Source: a virus. From it: a stretch of 64,000 nucleotides of DNA. Under the pieces are notes generated by a model. It had not been told where the DNA came from, made no database searches, and saw nothing but the letters and a program-made list of their open reading frames with translations. A program made the translations under genes and the position numbers. Below, one piece after another: positions 22,402-56,152 of the stretch; the stretch's first letter is position 1, and each line of letters begins with the position of its first letter. The stretch spans positions 334,072 to 398,071 of the IMG/VR virus record IMGVR_UViG_3300017991_000048; one strand, given 5' to 3'.

Positions 22402-22445
22402 GAAAAAGTAGGCTCTTGCAATATAATCCCCGCCAAATAATTTGA

Positions 22446-22575
22446 GAGCATTCGAGATGAGAAGCAGGTTTATGGTTTAGTCAATGGGAATCGAACCCAT
22501 TACCCTCTGTGTATAAGACAGATGCTCTACCAAATGAGCTATGACCGCTTGTATGCTATCTCCTGTTGAATGCTC
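22446..22575 (-). ncRNA. tRNA-enclosing RNA element, copy 1
   Basis: Outer helix GAGCATTC/GAATGCTC, inner helix GAGATAGC/GCTTCTC (one bulge), core CATACAAG on the 5' side and TAAACC on the 3' side, with CTC before the outer helix. It encloses a complete tRNA-Ile. Same architecture as seven other copies. Confidence 0.6.
22476..22548 (-). tRNA. tRNA-Ile(UAU)
   Basis: Anticodon loop CTTATAC and a standard T arm. The acceptor stem pairs only over five positions. Enclosed by RNA element copy 1. Confidence 0.75.
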
Positions 22576-22579
22576 TCGG

Positions 22580-22674: not shown

Positions 22675-22813
22675 CCCGTATCCGAGTTTATGAACCTGTT
22701 TGATTGCTCGTTTACAAGACGAGTGCCTAACCACTAGGCTATTTTCCAGAATGATAGGAAAAGTGGGATTCGAACCCACGTATGCATGTAAGATTCAAAT
22801 TGTTGGATACGGG
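22675..22813 (-). tRNA. circularly permuted tRNA-Thr(UGU)
   Basis: On the transcript the T arm and 3' acceptor half (ending TTTTCC) come before the 5' half (GGAAAA, D arm, anticodon arm with loop CTTGTAA). The two halves are joined by about nine bases. Flanks pair as CCCGTATCC/GGATACGGG and TGAATC/GGTTCA, with cores TTACATGCA and AAACA. Element copy 2. Confidence 0.7.
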
Positions 22814-22817
22814 TTGG

Positions 22818-22950
22818 CGGGGCTATTGGGAATCGAACCCAAAATGCTTGTGAGGACCGGAGAAAAGCTCCTTTCAGAGCCGAGATTCCATCCTGGTTGA
22901 TTTGCTCTTCATTAACCGTGAAGTGACAGTACCAACTGTCTAATAGCCCC
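22818..22950 (-). tRNA. tRNA-Asn(GUU) with 64-nt variable-arm insertion
   Basis: Acceptor GGGGCTA/TAGCCCC, D stem GACAG/CTGTC, anticodon stem CTTCA/TGAAG with loop CGGTTAA (G at position 33). The insertion before the T arm has AGGA/TCCT and cores AATCAACC and TCACAAGCA, a divergent copy of the RNA element. Confidence 0.7.
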
Positions 22951-22968
22951 TCAAAGTTGTTAGGTGTT

Positions 22969-23052
22969 ATATCCGAGTTCTAAGCCTGTTTCATGTATAA
23001 ATGGTGCAGCTAGGCTGCGTCGGTTTGCATGTAAGGCTTAGGTAATGGATAC
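22969..23052 (-). ncRNA. RNA element with 34-nt non-tRNA cargo
   Basis: Outer helix GTATCC/GGATAT, inner helix CTAAGCC/GGCTTAG, cores TTACATGCA and AAACA. The enclosed 34 nt (22992-23025) hold only a GCAG...CTGC hairpin. Confidence 0.55.
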
Positions 23053-23083
23053 AAGCCTAAGATTAATGATTCCTGCCCTCCTG

Positions 23084-37449: not shown

Positions 37450-37532
37450 TACACAGGGCGGGACTCGAACCCGCACGTCCTTTCGGACACAACCACCTCA
37501 GGGTTGCGTGTCTGCCTTTCCACCACCTGTGT
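37450..37532 (-). tRNA. tRNA-Leu(GAG)
   Basis: Class II, loop CTGAGGT, acceptor ACACAGG/CCTGTGT. Confidence 0.9.
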
Positions 37533-38334
37533 ATACTTCTTTTCCCCGGTGGTACATCACCAAGCTCTCGCCCATACCCACATTGAGGGTTTGCAAGATT
37601 GACTCCACCGACCTACCCACCGAAACCGGGCAACCCTTTCTCTTCTGCTTCGTCAAATATTGATGCACCAAATCCCAATCAGAAATCTTTGAAGAACCGC
37701 CACGGCTGTCAGTTCGTTGTCGGTGTGACCCAAATCCCGTGAGGTGCTTATTCCACAAAGGAGCAAAATCTCTAAGAAGCATCTGTTCCCCGTCAAACCA
37801 GTCCGGTAATCCTATAAAACGGCAAGTGAAATTCTCTAGCCCCAACCCTTGCTGCTGTATTGACTGAGCGTGTTCTTGAAGGCGTCTACCCAAAGAGGTG
37901 TACACGGCCTCACCGACATAGATAGCTAGTGTGGAAGCCTCTGAGCAAATCGGAGCATACAAGTCCCATTCACGCCCCACATAAAACAAACAATAAGCCC
38001 CAACGAGCGAAACCTTCACATCCCCTCTGAGGAAGGGCGTGAGAGAATAAGGGCCGCGTTGAAACAATTCCCGGTAAAACCTACGACGCAGTTCCAACTC
38101 ACTGCTTAAAGGGCCTTCTGAGAATGGGTTCCAACTCTCTAAATGTCTACCCAATACCGGGGTTGTAGGGACCGAAGGCTCTCTCAGGGGTTCAGGTTCC
38201 TCCTCAGGGCCGATGCCTGTTGCAAGAAAGTCCTCAATCGAATCGGTTCCGGGTGGCGGCTCTCGCAGGGGTTCAGGCTCCACTTTAGGAGCGAAGCCCA
38301 TCGCATCAAGAAAACCCTCAATCGAATCAAACAC
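37498..38334 (-). CDS. Eco29kI-like GIY-YIG endonuclease (second copy)
   Basis: 278 aa, GTG start overlapping the first copy's stop. STLAIYVGEAVYTSLGRRLQEH, NFTCRFIGLPDWFDGEQMLLRDFAPLWN and GFGSH match the Eco29kI GIY-YIG fold. N-terminus carries repeats of PEPLREP and SIEDFL. C-terminus reads into tRNA-Leu. No methylase partner beside it. Confidence 0.7.
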   Translation of the reverse strand: MFDSIEGFLDAMGFAPKVEPEPLREPPPGTDSIEDFLATGIGPEEEPEPLREPSVPTTPVLGRHLESWNPFSEGPLSSELELRRRFYRELFQRGPYSLTPFLRGDVKVSLVGAYCLFYVGREWDLYAPICSEASTLAIYVGEAVYTSLGRRLQEHAQSIQQQGLGLENFTCRFIGLPDWFDGEQMLLRDFAPLWNKHLTGFGSHRQRTDSRGGSSKISDWDLVHQYLTKQKRKGCPVSVGRSVESILQTLNVGMGESLVMYHRGKEVYTGGGKADTQP

Positions 38335-39142
38335 CAAACACCTCAGACCTCCGATAGCGCATCAAACTTTCTCGCACCCCAACACTAAACATCTCCTGGA
38401 TAGGCTCAACCGGACGCCCACCGCCTGAAGCGGCACCCAACCTTGCCTTGCCTGTCAAAGATTGGTGAAAAAGATCCCAATCAGACACTTTCTGAATATC
38501 AGCGTAACCGAACGCATGACCAAAACCGCGAAGGTATCTATTCCACAGAGGCGAGAAATCCCGAAGCAGCATTTGCTCTCCGTCAAACCAGTCTGGCAGC
38601 CCCATAAAGCGACAGGTAAAGTTCTCCAACCCTAGCCCCTGCTGGTGGATCGACCGGGCGTGTTCTTGCAACCTCCCGCCCAACGAAGCGGCTACCGATT
38701 CCCCTACATAAATCGCCAAGGTCGAGGCTTCAGAGCGAACCGGGGCATATGGCTCCCACGCATCTCCCACGTAGAATAAACAGTACACACCAAGCAAAGT
38801 GCTTCGCACATCACCGTTGAGAAATGCTGTCAGAGAGTAGGGGCCTCGTTGAAACAACTCCCGGTAAAACAAGCGTCGGAGTTCAGGCTCATCATCAATT
38901 AATCCTGCCTGGAAAGGGTTCCACACTTCCAGGTGATGGCTGAGTACCGGGGTGGTAGGGACCGAAGGCTCTTTCAGGGGTTCAGGTTCCACCTCAGGGG
39001 TGATGCCTGTTGCATCAAGAAACCCCTCAATCGAATCGCCGCCTTCCGGAACTGAAGGCTCTCGCAGGGATTCAGGCTCTACGATGCCCATTGCATCAAG
39101 AAAAACCTCAATCGAATCGCCGCCTTCCGGAACGTCTTGCAC
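38327..39142 (-). CDS. Eco29kI-like GIY-YIG endonuclease (first copy)
   Basis: 271 aa, GTG start 12 nt after GGTG. Close paralogue of the next gene: same YVGES, LRDFSPLWN and GFG motifs and the same N-terminal repeats (SIEVFLDAMG, PEPLKEP). Tandem duplication. Confidence 0.7.
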   Translation of the reverse strand: MQDVPEGGDSIEVFLDAMGIVEPESLREPSVPEGGDSIEGFLDATGITPEVEPEPLKEPSVPTTPVLSHHLEVWNPFQAGLIDDEPELRRLFYRELFQRGPYSLTAFLNGDVRSTLLGVYCLFYVGDAWEPYAPVRSEASTLAIYVGESVAASLGGRLQEHARSIHQQGLGLENFTCRFMGLPDWFDGEQMLLRDFSPLWNRYLRGFGHAFGYADIQKVSDWDLFHQSLTGKARLGAASGGGRPVEPIQEMFSVGVRESLMRYRRSEVFGV

Positions 39143-39726: not shown

Positions 39727-39742
39727 TATACTTACCTTTCGG

Positions 39743-39827
39743 CGGAAGACAGAAGAGTCGAACTCCATACTCTTTCGAATACGCACTCCTTAGCAGGGAG
39801 GCTCTAACCCGGTTAGATTTGTCTTCC
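39743..39827 (-). tRNA. tRNA-Ser(GCU)
   Basis: Class II, acceptor GGAAGAC/GTCTTCC, loop CTGCTAA. Confidence 0.9.
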
Positions 39828-40543: not shown

Positions 40544-40586
40544 ACCTACACCTTCCATAAAACCTTTGTCTACACCTTCCATTAGC

Positions 40587-40669
40587 GGAAGTCAGAGGGA
40601 TCGAACCCCAAGCCCGAAGGCTCGCACAGATTTCAAGTCTGGCTCGCACCCATGTACGATTTGACTTCC
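40587..40669 (-). tRNA. tRNA-Ser(UGA)
   Basis: Acceptor GGAAGTC/GACTTCC, loop CTTGAAA. Confidence 0.9.
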
Positions 40670-41002
40670 TTTGATAAAACATTCTGTGTGTGGAATATAG
40701 TTACGACTATAGAAAAAACTGCCGCCAAAGAACCGTTCCCCTTTAGAAAAGGAACGAGAGTTCGCGTCCGGAAAGATGCATGGAAATGGTGGGATCGAAA
40801 CATATCCGACTGGCCCAAAGACTCCCCAGAATCTACCGGTAGGCGCGAACTTCTTTTGAAACTGTCCAAAGAAGTAGGGAAAATAATCTTCGTCAGCCCC
40901 CGACCAGCATGGAGATCTGATGAAAAACGGGGGATCGACGTTAAGTTTCCCAGTGAGTCCAAGGATATTAGATTGTTCCCGCCAATGTTAGATATAGTCT
41001 AG
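40652..41002 (+). CDS. hypothetical protein
   Basis: Up to 116 aa; the first ATG lies inside the tRNA-Ser gene, so the real start may be the GTG near 40688. FRKGTRVRVRKDAWKWW looks like a small beta domain. One of few plus-strand genes. Confidence 0.5.
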   Translation: MYDLTSFDKTFCVWNIVTTIEKTAAKEPFPFRKGTRVRVRKDAWKWWDRNISDWPKDSPESTGRRELLLKLSKEVGKIIFVSPRPAWRSDEKRGIDVKFPSESKDIRLFPPMLDIV

Positions 41003-41003
41003 G

Positions 41004-41088
41004 CGGAAGGCAGAGTAATCGAAACCCACACCCTTACGAGTGCCCACCACTTTCGAAGCGGGTCCAGCGCCTTGCTGATTTACCTTCC
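41004..41088 (-). tRNA. tRNA-Ser(CGA)
   Basis: Loop TTCGAAA; T arm irregular, as in tRNA-Ser(GGA). Confidence 0.8.
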
Positions 41089-44255: not shown

Positions 44256-44259
44256 GTAG

Positions 44260-44344
44260 CGGAAGCAGGAGTAATCGAAACCCATACCCTTACGAGTACA
44301 CATAGCTTTCCAGGCTAGCCTGACACCTTGCCAGTTCTACTTCC
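44260..44344 (-). tRNA. tRNA-Ser(GGA)
   Basis: Loop CTGGAAA, acceptor GGAAGTA/TGCTTCC-type. Confidence 0.85.
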
Positions 44345-51476: not shown

Positions 51477-51502
51477 ACCTACATAATGTATAAAGAAATT
51501 TT

Positions 51503-51654
51503 GCTCACGATCGAGAGAAAGACCTGTTTTAGCTTTGTGCTTGTTCTCAAGACAAGTGCGTTTACCATTCCGCCATATCTCGGCTAGGCCGAAACAACAG
51601 GATTCGAACCTGTAAACATTATGCATGTAAGATCATATCATTATGATCGCGAGC
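51503..51654 (-). tRNA. circularly permuted tRNA, UGA anticodon
   Basis: T arm ACAGG/CCTGT and 3' acceptor TTTCGGC precede GCCGAGA, a leucine-like D arm and anticodon arm CTTGT/ACAAG with loop CTTGAGA. The halves are joined by CTA. Flanks pair as GCTCGCGATC/GATCGTGAGC and GATC/GGTC, cores TTACATGCA and AAACA. Confidence 0.7.
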
Positions 51655-51658
51655 ATGG

Positions 51659-51808
51659 TGGGAACGCCAGGATTCGAACCTGGATTGCATGTAAGCGCCG
51701 TGAAGTATCTCCTATTTCTAGGGAGCTATCCCATATAAGAGATGAGTGACAGTGCTGTTTATCGCTTTCGATTGGATGTCGAATTGGTTTGCCATTTCCA
51801 ACGTTCCC
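51659..51808 (-). tRNA. tRNA(UCC) with variable-arm RNA element
   Basis: Acceptor GGGAACG/CGTTCCC, anticodon stem TTCGA/TCGAA with loop CATCCAA (A33). The roughly 85-nt insertion has TAAACAG, helix GCACTGT/ACGGCGC (one mismatch) and TTACATGCA before the T arm. Confidence 0.65.
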
Positions 51809-51819
51809 TAATATTACGG

Positions 51820-51953
51820 TGGGGGATTGTGGAATCGAACCACAAATGCATGTAAGCGCCGTTAGATTGTTTCCCTAAAGAAACGAGATACAGTGCTGAT
51901 TATTATCGCTTTCGATTTACAGTCGAAGTGAGGAACCAACCTCAATATCCCCC
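51820..51953 (-). tRNA. tRNA-Tyr(GUA) with variable-arm RNA element
   Basis: Acceptor GGGGGAT/ATCCCCC, loop CTGTAAA. Insertion of about 65 nt with TAATCAG, the same GCACTGT/ACGGCGC helix, inner GTTTC/GAAAC hairpin and TTACATGCA. Confidence 0.75.
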
Positions 51954-52781: not shown

Positions 52782-52786
52782 ATCCA

Positions 52787-52912
52787 GAGCGTTCGAGTTA
52801 TAAAGCAGTTTATGGTTTGCAAAGTGGGACTTGAACCCACGACTTTCTGTGCCTAAAACAGACGTCCTACCAACTGGACGATTTGCATGTATGCCCAATA
52901 TTATGAACGCTC
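52787..52912 (-). ncRNA. tRNA-enclosing RNA element, last copy
   Basis: Outer helix GAGCGTTC/GAACGCTC, cores CATACATG and TAAACTG, AACTC before the outer helix. Encloses the next tRNA. Very close in design to copy 1. Confidence 0.6.
52817..52887 (-). tRNA. class I tRNA with UAG anticodon
   Basis: Anticodon stem TCTGT/ACAGA, loop TTTAGGC, acceptor TGCAAA/TTTGCA. Anticodon reads Leu CUA although the variable loop is short. Confidence 0.7.
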
Positions 52913-52942
52913 TTGGCGGTAAGTGAAGGAATCGAACCTTCG

Positions 52943-55135: not shown

Positions 55136-56152
55136 CTATGTCACCGTAGCATTAGCCGTGAACCCTGAGTCACCCGGCATGTTAGAACCACCGGCAAGCG
55201 CCACGTCCGCTGCTGCCGCCACGCTGGAGTCTCCGTTCAATGTCAGATCGATCTCATCATAAATATCAATATCAGCCGCCACGCTGGAATCGCCAGCCAT
55301 GGTGGAATCGACCTGATACGTCACCCCGGCTCCGGGTGTGACGCTGGAGTCGCCAGCCATGGTAGCTGCACCCTCATATGCAACCGTAGCTGTCCCGGAA
55401 GCTGTCGAGTCGCCAGCCATGGTGCTGTCGGCCCCAAGAATCAAGCTTGGAACTGCAATCCAACTAGAGTCACCCGGCATCAGAGCCTGTCCCTGGTGCT
55501 GCTCAGCTACCTCAATGGACGCTCCTGGGGCTATGTCCCAAATCACCTCGTTTCCAACCTGAACCCTGTCTATGGTTCCAGCAAAGTCGGCCAACGCCAA
55601 TTGCCCAAAAGTTGTGCCAACCATGAGAGATGTGGGCTGAAATGGAGTCCAAGGGGGAACATTTGTATACCATAACGCCACCCAATCATTATACTGGAAC
55701 CCCGCATGTCGGCCAAAATACACAACATTTTCGACATCCCAAGCCAGAGTGATCTCCAAATTCTGACCTTCTGGCACTGGCGGAGGGGTAAAAATGGCAC
55801 TCTTGCCTGCCAAATTCCCGAATTGGTCATAAATCAAGGCGTAAGGCCGGTTGATAGCATCAACCGCGACTCCCAAATACAGCGACCCGGCTCTTAAAAA
55901 AGCCACGGCTTGATCCACTCCCTGTGCCCCGGCAGAACAATCAATCTGCATTGTACCCACTCGACCGGACAAGGAAAAACCCCGTGGAGTCTGTAAAGTA
56001 TGCTCTCCGACGCCTCGAACCTGGACATTAGCCCCTGGTAAAAGCGTGGAAACGATGTTTCTGCCGTGGGTTCCAGGCCCATTTTGAGGAGGAACCACAT
56101 CTACTTCCATAATGAAGCCAGCAGGCGAAAGGATAGAAAATGTATCGGGCAT
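55136..56152 (-). CDS. structural protein with LamG-like domain and repeats
   Basis: 338 aa. N-terminal beta-sandwich (lectin/LamG-like, about 1-215) and a C-terminal tail of MAGDSS/MPGDSS-type repeats at least six times. Probably a tail or decoration protein. Confidence 0.6.
   Translation of the reverse strand: MPDTFSILSPAGFIMEVDVVPPQNGPGTHGRNIVSTLLPGANVQVRGVGEHTLQTPRGFSLSGRVGTMQIDCSAGAQGVDQAVAFLRAGSLYLGVAVDAINRPYALIYDQFGNLAGKSAIFTPPPVPEGQNLEITLAWDVENVVYFGRHAGFQYNDWVALWYTNVPPWTPFQPTSLMVGTTFGQLALADFAGTIDRVQVGNEVIWDIAPGASIEVAEQHQGQALMPGDSSWIAVPSLILGADSTMAGDSTASGTATVAYEGAATMAGDSSVTPGAGVTYQVDSTMAGDSSVAADIDIYDEIDLTLNGDSSVAAAADVALAGGSNMPGDSGFTANATVT

Follow-up and report, generated by a model that had tools for sequence, protein, structure and literature searches.

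We describe a group of RNA elements of about 50-85 nt that interrupt or surround tRNA genes in huge phages and that probably constitute a new family of very small, structured and excisable tRNA introns, with a permuted form that would circularise its exon. The anatomy of the element, its covariation, its linear and permuted layouts and its recurrence in many huge phages are established here by computation, and the linear copies examined are restricted to tRNA-like genes. Excision followed by ligation, which we infer, is the most economical reading of both layouts, because the halves of a permuted gene become one tRNA only if their element-side ends are joined.

The window analysed here, 64,000 nt in length, corresponds to bases 334072-398071 of a 398,071-base huge-phage record. 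Among its gene products are phage-type UvsX, an NAD DNA ligase, ribonucleotide reductase, GroEL and a DNA methyltransferase, and ARAGORN identifies 39 tRNAs in it; four tRNA-Ser genes fall under the ARAGORN default score (39741-39827, 40585-40669, 41002-41088, 44259-44344 (-)). Two protein-coding regions of the window are also repetitive: neighbouring ORFs of 279 and 271 aa at 37498-39142 (-) have long direct repeats between them (76-93% identity), in an apparent tandem duplication, and a 338-aa ORF with no PHROG match contains three copies of a 60-base direct repeat at 55281-55445. The window holds eight copies of the element (Table 1): three linear copies, with inserts of 64-83 nt, two around permuted tRNAs, two that enclose whole tRNAs and one that encloses a short non-tRNA exon, the whole-tRNA and non-tRNA-exon copies having been added by a relaxed scan. 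The remainder of the 398-kb record yielded zero copies in the relaxed scan and, for linear copies, with CM R1.

At the locus singled out in a preliminary description of this DNA, two minus-strand tRNAs, Tyr(GUA) (51953-51821) and UCC (51808-51656), carry inserts of 66 and 83 nt between the anticodon arm and the T arm, in agreement with that account. Both inserts contain the common helix reported there, with AAWCA-GCACTGT on the 5' side and ACGGCGC-TTACATGCA on the 3' side, and both contain an inner hairpin that is different in sequence in each. Neither tRNA is called in its unspliced form by ARAGORN or by Rfam at gathering thresholds, and with permissive Rfam settings the Tyr gene gives a weak match to tRNA-Sec, under the cut-off of that family. 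At minimum energy the Tyr transcript folds into a cloverleaf, with the insert forming a separate hairpin (z = -2.26). No intron-less Tyr allele was found with one search pattern. The 10-mer CTTACATGCA occurs 11 times in the window with at most one mismatch, against 3.2 occurrences expected, and its five exact occurrences (22783, 23026, 51622, 51686 and 51847) all lie within the element.

Table 1. Coordinates of the element copies and of their tRNA or other exons in the window.
Feature	Position	Strand	Basis
tRNA-Tyr(GUA) 5' part (acceptor strand, D arm, anticodon arm)	51911..51953	-	Sequence; ARAGORN gives Tyr once insert removed
66-nt linear insert, tRNA-Tyr; element core 51848-51898	51845..51910	-	CM R1, 43.5 bits
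tRNA-Tyr T arm and 3' acceptor strand	51821..51844	-	Sequence
UCC-anticodon tRNA 5' part; A33 in place of U33	51767..51808	-	Sequence
83-nt linear insert, UCC tRNA; element core 51687-51757	51684..51766	-	CM R1, 39.6 bits
UCC tRNA T arm, acceptor strand, encoded CCA	51656..51683	-	Sequence
Permuted element 3' piece (Pb', loop B, Pa', CTTACATGC), tRNA-Ser(UGA)	51623..51655	-	Sequence
tRNA-Ser(UGA) 3' half (T arm and acceptor 3' strand), comes first	51589..51622	-	Joined halves, ARAGORN 117
tRNA-Ser(UGA) 5' half (acceptor 5' strand, D arm, anticodon arm), comes second	51539..51583	-	ARAGORN on joined halves
Permuted element 5' piece (CAG, Pa, CTCTC, Pb), tRNA-Ser(UGA)	51502..51526	-	Pb GATCGTGAGCA pairs with upstream TGCTCGCGATC
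Permuted element 3' piece, tRNA-Thr(UGU)	22784..22813	-	Sequence
tRNA-Thr(UGU) 3' half, comes first	22757..22783	-	Joined halves, ARAGORN 116.5
tRNA-Thr(UGU) 5' half, comes second	22706..22747	-	ARAGORN on joined halves
Permuted element 5' piece, tRNA-Thr(UGU)	22675..22698	-	Pb GGATACGGG pairs with upstream CCCGTATCC
Element 3' piece ahead of whole Leu-TAG-called tRNA; last 4 bases ATGC are the tRNA's first bases	52885..52913	-	
Whole tRNA (Leu-TAG call), encoded ACCA, between element pieces	52813..52888	-	ARAGORN
Element 5' piece behind Leu-TAG-called tRNA, CTG form	52786..52808	-	
Element 3' piece ahead of whole tRNA-Ile(UAU), ATACAAGC form	22547..22577	-	
Whole tRNA-Ile(UAU) between element pieces	22473..22546	-	ARAGORN
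Element 5' piece behind tRNA-Ile, CTG form	22444..22467	-	GAATGCTCTC pairs with upstream GAGAGCATTC
Element 3' piece ahead of short non-tRNA exon	23027..23054	-	Sequence
Exon of about 38 nt, GCAGC/GCTGC hairpin, no tRNA	22989..23026	-	Sequence
Element 5' piece behind non-tRNA exon	22967..22988	-	Sequence
GUU-anticodon tRNA 5' part, G33	22907..22950	-	Sequence
64-nt linear insert, GUU tRNA	22843..22906	-	CM R1, 41.8 bits
GUU tRNA T arm and 3' end	22815..22842	-	Sequence

A third copy, one of six in the window that the preliminary description does not mention, adjoins the UCC tRNA downstream (51655-51502, minus strand) and lies around a circularly permuted tRNA-Ser(UGA). Here, at 51622, and again at 22783, around a tRNA-Thr(UGU), the order of parts is the 10-mer CTTACATGCA, the tRNA 3' half, the 5' half, CAG and a strand that pairs upstream of the 10-mer, so that in both genes the 3' half precedes the 5' half and the two make up one cloverleaf. 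The permuted gene is not the sole tRNA-Ser(UGA) of the phage, since relaxed ARAGORN settings locate an ordinary one at 40585-40669. In the two whole-tRNA copies (22444-22577 and 52786-52913, minus strand) the motifs take the variant forms ATACAWGC and CTG, and ACCA is encoded. The 38-nt exon within 22967-23054 (-) would yield a very small RNA circle.

Linear and permuted copies have a common anatomy, with the consensus (GC N3-9) CA / Pa of 7 positions, the first pair always G-C / NACUC / Pb / about 5 nt, A-rich / Pa' / UYACAHGC. Near-invariant bases lie in two internal loops, on both strands and at a fixed 7-position spacing, and the sequences of the helices are free to vary. The element is predicted to fold as a hairpin that two conserved internal loops interrupt. 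Loop A (5' GC-N3-9-CA; 3' UYACAH-GC) would adjoin the exons and be followed by the 7-position helix Pa, beyond which loop B (5' NACUC; 3' about 5 nt, A-rich) would lead into Pb, a helix of free sequence.

Relatives of the element were gathered by pattern scans of IMG/VR, which returned contigs of huge phages, the longest of 618 kb, that show this anatomy too. We parsed 28 permuted and 17 linear candidates, 42 of which entered an alignment. In this alignment 92.9% of helix cells are paired (58.7% when shuffled), 208 cells are changed on both sides (58 when shuffled), and covariation scores 0.96, whereas slid versions reach 0.19 at most; these figures are inflated by the selection of rows that were required to pair. 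A GC dinucleotide lies 3-9 nt ahead of CAG in 31 of the 42 copies, compared with 19% in shuffled flanks. We therefore give more weight to three independent controls, namely reversal, piece swapping and the search with CM R1 described below, the first two of which are free of the pairing-selection bias of the alignment. The reversed-sequence control over 2.6 Mb returned 0 matches, against 54 (31 permuted and 23 linear) in the unreversed sequence, and in the piece-swap control 27 of 28 permuted elements had two pieces that matched, as opposed to 3.8% of the pairings of pieces from different loci.

With CM R1, linear copies were recovered from 18 of the 24 element-bearing records, whereas 10 large contigs that lack the motif, 7 isolated jumbo phages and 26 contigs recruited by look-alike motifs gave none. 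A syntenic block with linear, permuted and whole-tRNA forms is kept in three phages (G000, L018 and L074). Searches of isolated phages with blastn gave nothing beyond tRNA-sized matches. Several candidates were discarded: a pattern scan of genome contigs gave 24 matches, none of which fit the element model in the scan made, and those examined resemble chance matches, ordinary tRNA-Val(UAC) or, in the case of L111 (Woesebacteria), a tmRNA 3' end; and the patterns TTACACGCA and TCACACGCA mostly pick up ordinary tRNAs, such as the variable arms of Ser and Leu tRNAs, which the CM turns down.

Removing or rejoining sequence at the element boundaries restores recognisable tRNAs. After element removal ARAGORN calls a tRNA in 35 of 43 linear copies, compared with 0 of 43 before removal, a contrast due in part to the inability of ARAGORN to handle so long a variable region; further copies from other records likewise lie inside tRNA-like genes. 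Joined permuted halves mostly give ARAGORN tRNA calls scoring above 100. In several class I permuted tRNAs, C44 together with the bases past the 3' GC forms a canonical 5-nt variable region, and joining at the GC dinucleotides in L018 (linear) and L012 (permuted) creates a variable-arm hairpin across the junction (TTTG-TACG-CAAA and AACG-CATA-CGTT, respectively). No single splice register fits every tRNA, since the distance from the 5' GC to CAG varies between 3 and 9 nt among the 31 copies that have it, and, with joining at the GC, the variable regions of class I permuted genes whose GC is distal would come to 10-13 nt. The whole-tRNA copies, which need no splicing, also count against excision and ligation as a general account.

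In the mechanism we put forward, both strands of loop A in the precursor would be cleaved close to the two GC dinucleotides, releasing the hairpin, and the exon ends would be joined, which in linear genes would restore the variable region of the tRNA. Permuted genes have Pb opened out and the exon within the element, and there the same reaction would join the end of the exon to its own start, generating a circle that tRNA end-processing enzymes such as RNase P could open at the acceptor to give a normal tRNA. The joined ends would most likely be a 2',3'-cyclic phosphate and a 5'-OH, sealed by an RtcB-type ligase of the phage or its host.

Within this framework the splicing activity may reside in proteins, with an endonuclease of the phage or host reading the two loops and an RNA ligase, whether RtcB or another, sealing the exons, a version that we hold tentatively and at somewhat below an even chance. 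RtcB joins 2',3'-cyclic phosphate or 3'-phosphate ends to 5'-OH ends, and small ribozymes and tRNA endonucleases leave ends of this kind. Of the 15 records of 250 kb or more that carry the element, 9 contain RtcB (PF01139), compared with 1 of 10 that do not carry it (Fisher p = 0.018, with relatedness ignored). An RNA ligase scores above cut-off in four records, and L271 (G004:228000-243000) contains an RNA repair island in which RtcB, an RNA ligase and RlaP lie together near a tRNA cluster. Against a dedicated protein machinery, RtcB was not found in this record or in 6 of the 15 large element-bearing records, its neighbours include no conserved partner gene, and the archaeal-type splicing endonuclease EndA (PF01974) was detected neither in this record nor in 17 element-bearing records, which are possibly fragments and whose hosts could supply the enzyme. 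Moreover, RtcB and other ligases also repair tRNAs cut by host defences. A LAGLIDADG protein lies beside RtcB in both L271 and L279.

The other version of excision and ligation is a self-splicing ribozyme, in which the hairpin alone would catalyse both steps free of protein. In its favour, the near-invariant bases of the two loops are held at a fixed spacing and the helices are of free sequence, and the layout tolerates circular permutation, as do autocatalytic introns; the negative EndA results and the large records lacking RtcB, which weaken the protein-dependent version, speak for this one. On the other hand, the element shows no likeness to known catalytic cores and is far smaller than any self-splicing RNA known to us, conservation of loop sequence suits recognition by a protein equally well, and the enrichment of RtcB suggests a ligase partner. 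We regard autocatalysis as possible, if doubtful; with the same reserve, the element could be a new ribozyme class with a self-splicing core of about 50 nt that leaves tRNAs and whose natural permuted form generates RNA circles during infection.

The preliminary description left undecided whether the insert is removed by splicing or stays in place as a giant variable arm. The permuted copies in this and related phages tilt that choice towards excision, which as a reaction is deduced from gene layout. Retention of the linear insert, with the resulting RNAs acting as decoys or other tRNA mimics, is unlikely, and draws on the peculiarities of the carriers and on the Tyr fold, in which cloverleaf and hairpin coexist. 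Many linear carriers lack U33, have 8-nt anticodon loops, as in four-base-codon tRNAs (the element-bearing tRNAs of L154, L258, L200, L224, L245, L269 and L297), or have no anticodon arm (L074 and L333). Equivalent carriers in the syntenic block of G000, L018 and L074 differ in anticodon (GUU, AUC and UAU for one; UGU, AGA and none for another), and one carrier of the block has lost precisely its anticodon arm. These anticodon features suggest that translation is possibly not what element-bearing tRNAs serve, and one possibility is that the odd carriers are decoys against tRNA-cutting host defences. A retained arm nevertheless leaves unexplained why an element of the same polarity surrounds permuted tRNAs, whose halves need joining.

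A further alternative, and quite an improbable one, is that the element is cut out and the pieces are left unjoined, so that permuted genes would give two-piece tRNAs. Permuted tmRNA genes are known to give a two-piece tmRNA, and the whole-tRNA copies require cutting only; yet linear copies would then split an ordinary tRNA for no gain, and in several cases the joined products rebuild canonical variable regions. That the copies are decayed or chance repeats without function is scarcely credible, and very unlikely as the sole explanation, because, even if tRNA clusters are repetitive and the 3' motif alone arises by chance in ordinary tRNA-Val, Ser and tmRNA genes, the reversed control is empty, covariation is strong and the CM parts true from chance loci.

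To our knowledge, the introns of bacterial tRNAs are ribozymes of group I or group II that run to hundreds of bases. The element matches none of the known intron classes tested and looks like a new kind of intron; no report of it was found in the collection of open papers searched. If excision and ligation is confirmed, the element would provide a third route to interrupt and rebuild tRNAs in bacteria, would be one reason why tRNA finders overlook some tRNAs of huge phages, and would perhaps be the smallest splicing RNA, with possible use as a compact tool for making RNA circles.

No intron or ribozyme family of Rfam 15 matches the element, at gathering thresholds or at E <= 10, which upholds the earlier statement that no group I core fits: covariance models detect neither a P3-P8 core with its guanosine site nor an HDV-like or other known small ribozyme, and there is no Rfam match to group II domains V/VI. 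At 64-83 nt the window inserts also exceed a class II long variable arm, which reaches roughly two dozen nt. Group I introns of bacterial and phage tRNAs resemble the element in lying within a tRNA and in having permuted intron-exon layouts that give circles, but they are a few hundred nt long, as opposed to about 50-85 nt, and have a core that the element lacks; the element, for its part, sits between the anticodon arm and the T arm. Bacteria also have natural, circularly permuted group II introns that give RNA circles, a precedent for a natural permuted intron, although the element is far smaller and without group II domains. Archaea and some algae are known to have permuted tRNA genes, and the archaeal and red-algal systems include tRNA introns, among them introns at non-canonical positions, genes with the 3' half first, circularisation and a ligation of the RtcB type that is plausible for the element too. 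Their bulge-helix-bulge (BHB), however, is a motif of shape only, with a 4-bp helix, two 3-nt bulges and no sequence motif, whereas the element has a 7-position helix between two sequence-conserved loops, and occurs in phages in which EndA was not found. Two-piece permuted tmRNA shares with it the permuted order of a tRNA-like RNA but no motif, and the permissive Rfam matches to tmRNA are weak and run through tRNA-like parts only. Lastly, the HDV-like theta ribozymes found near phage tRNAs are likewise small structured RNAs tied to tRNA maturation, but they cut once beside the tRNA, whereas the element lies inside or around the tRNA and has two boundaries.
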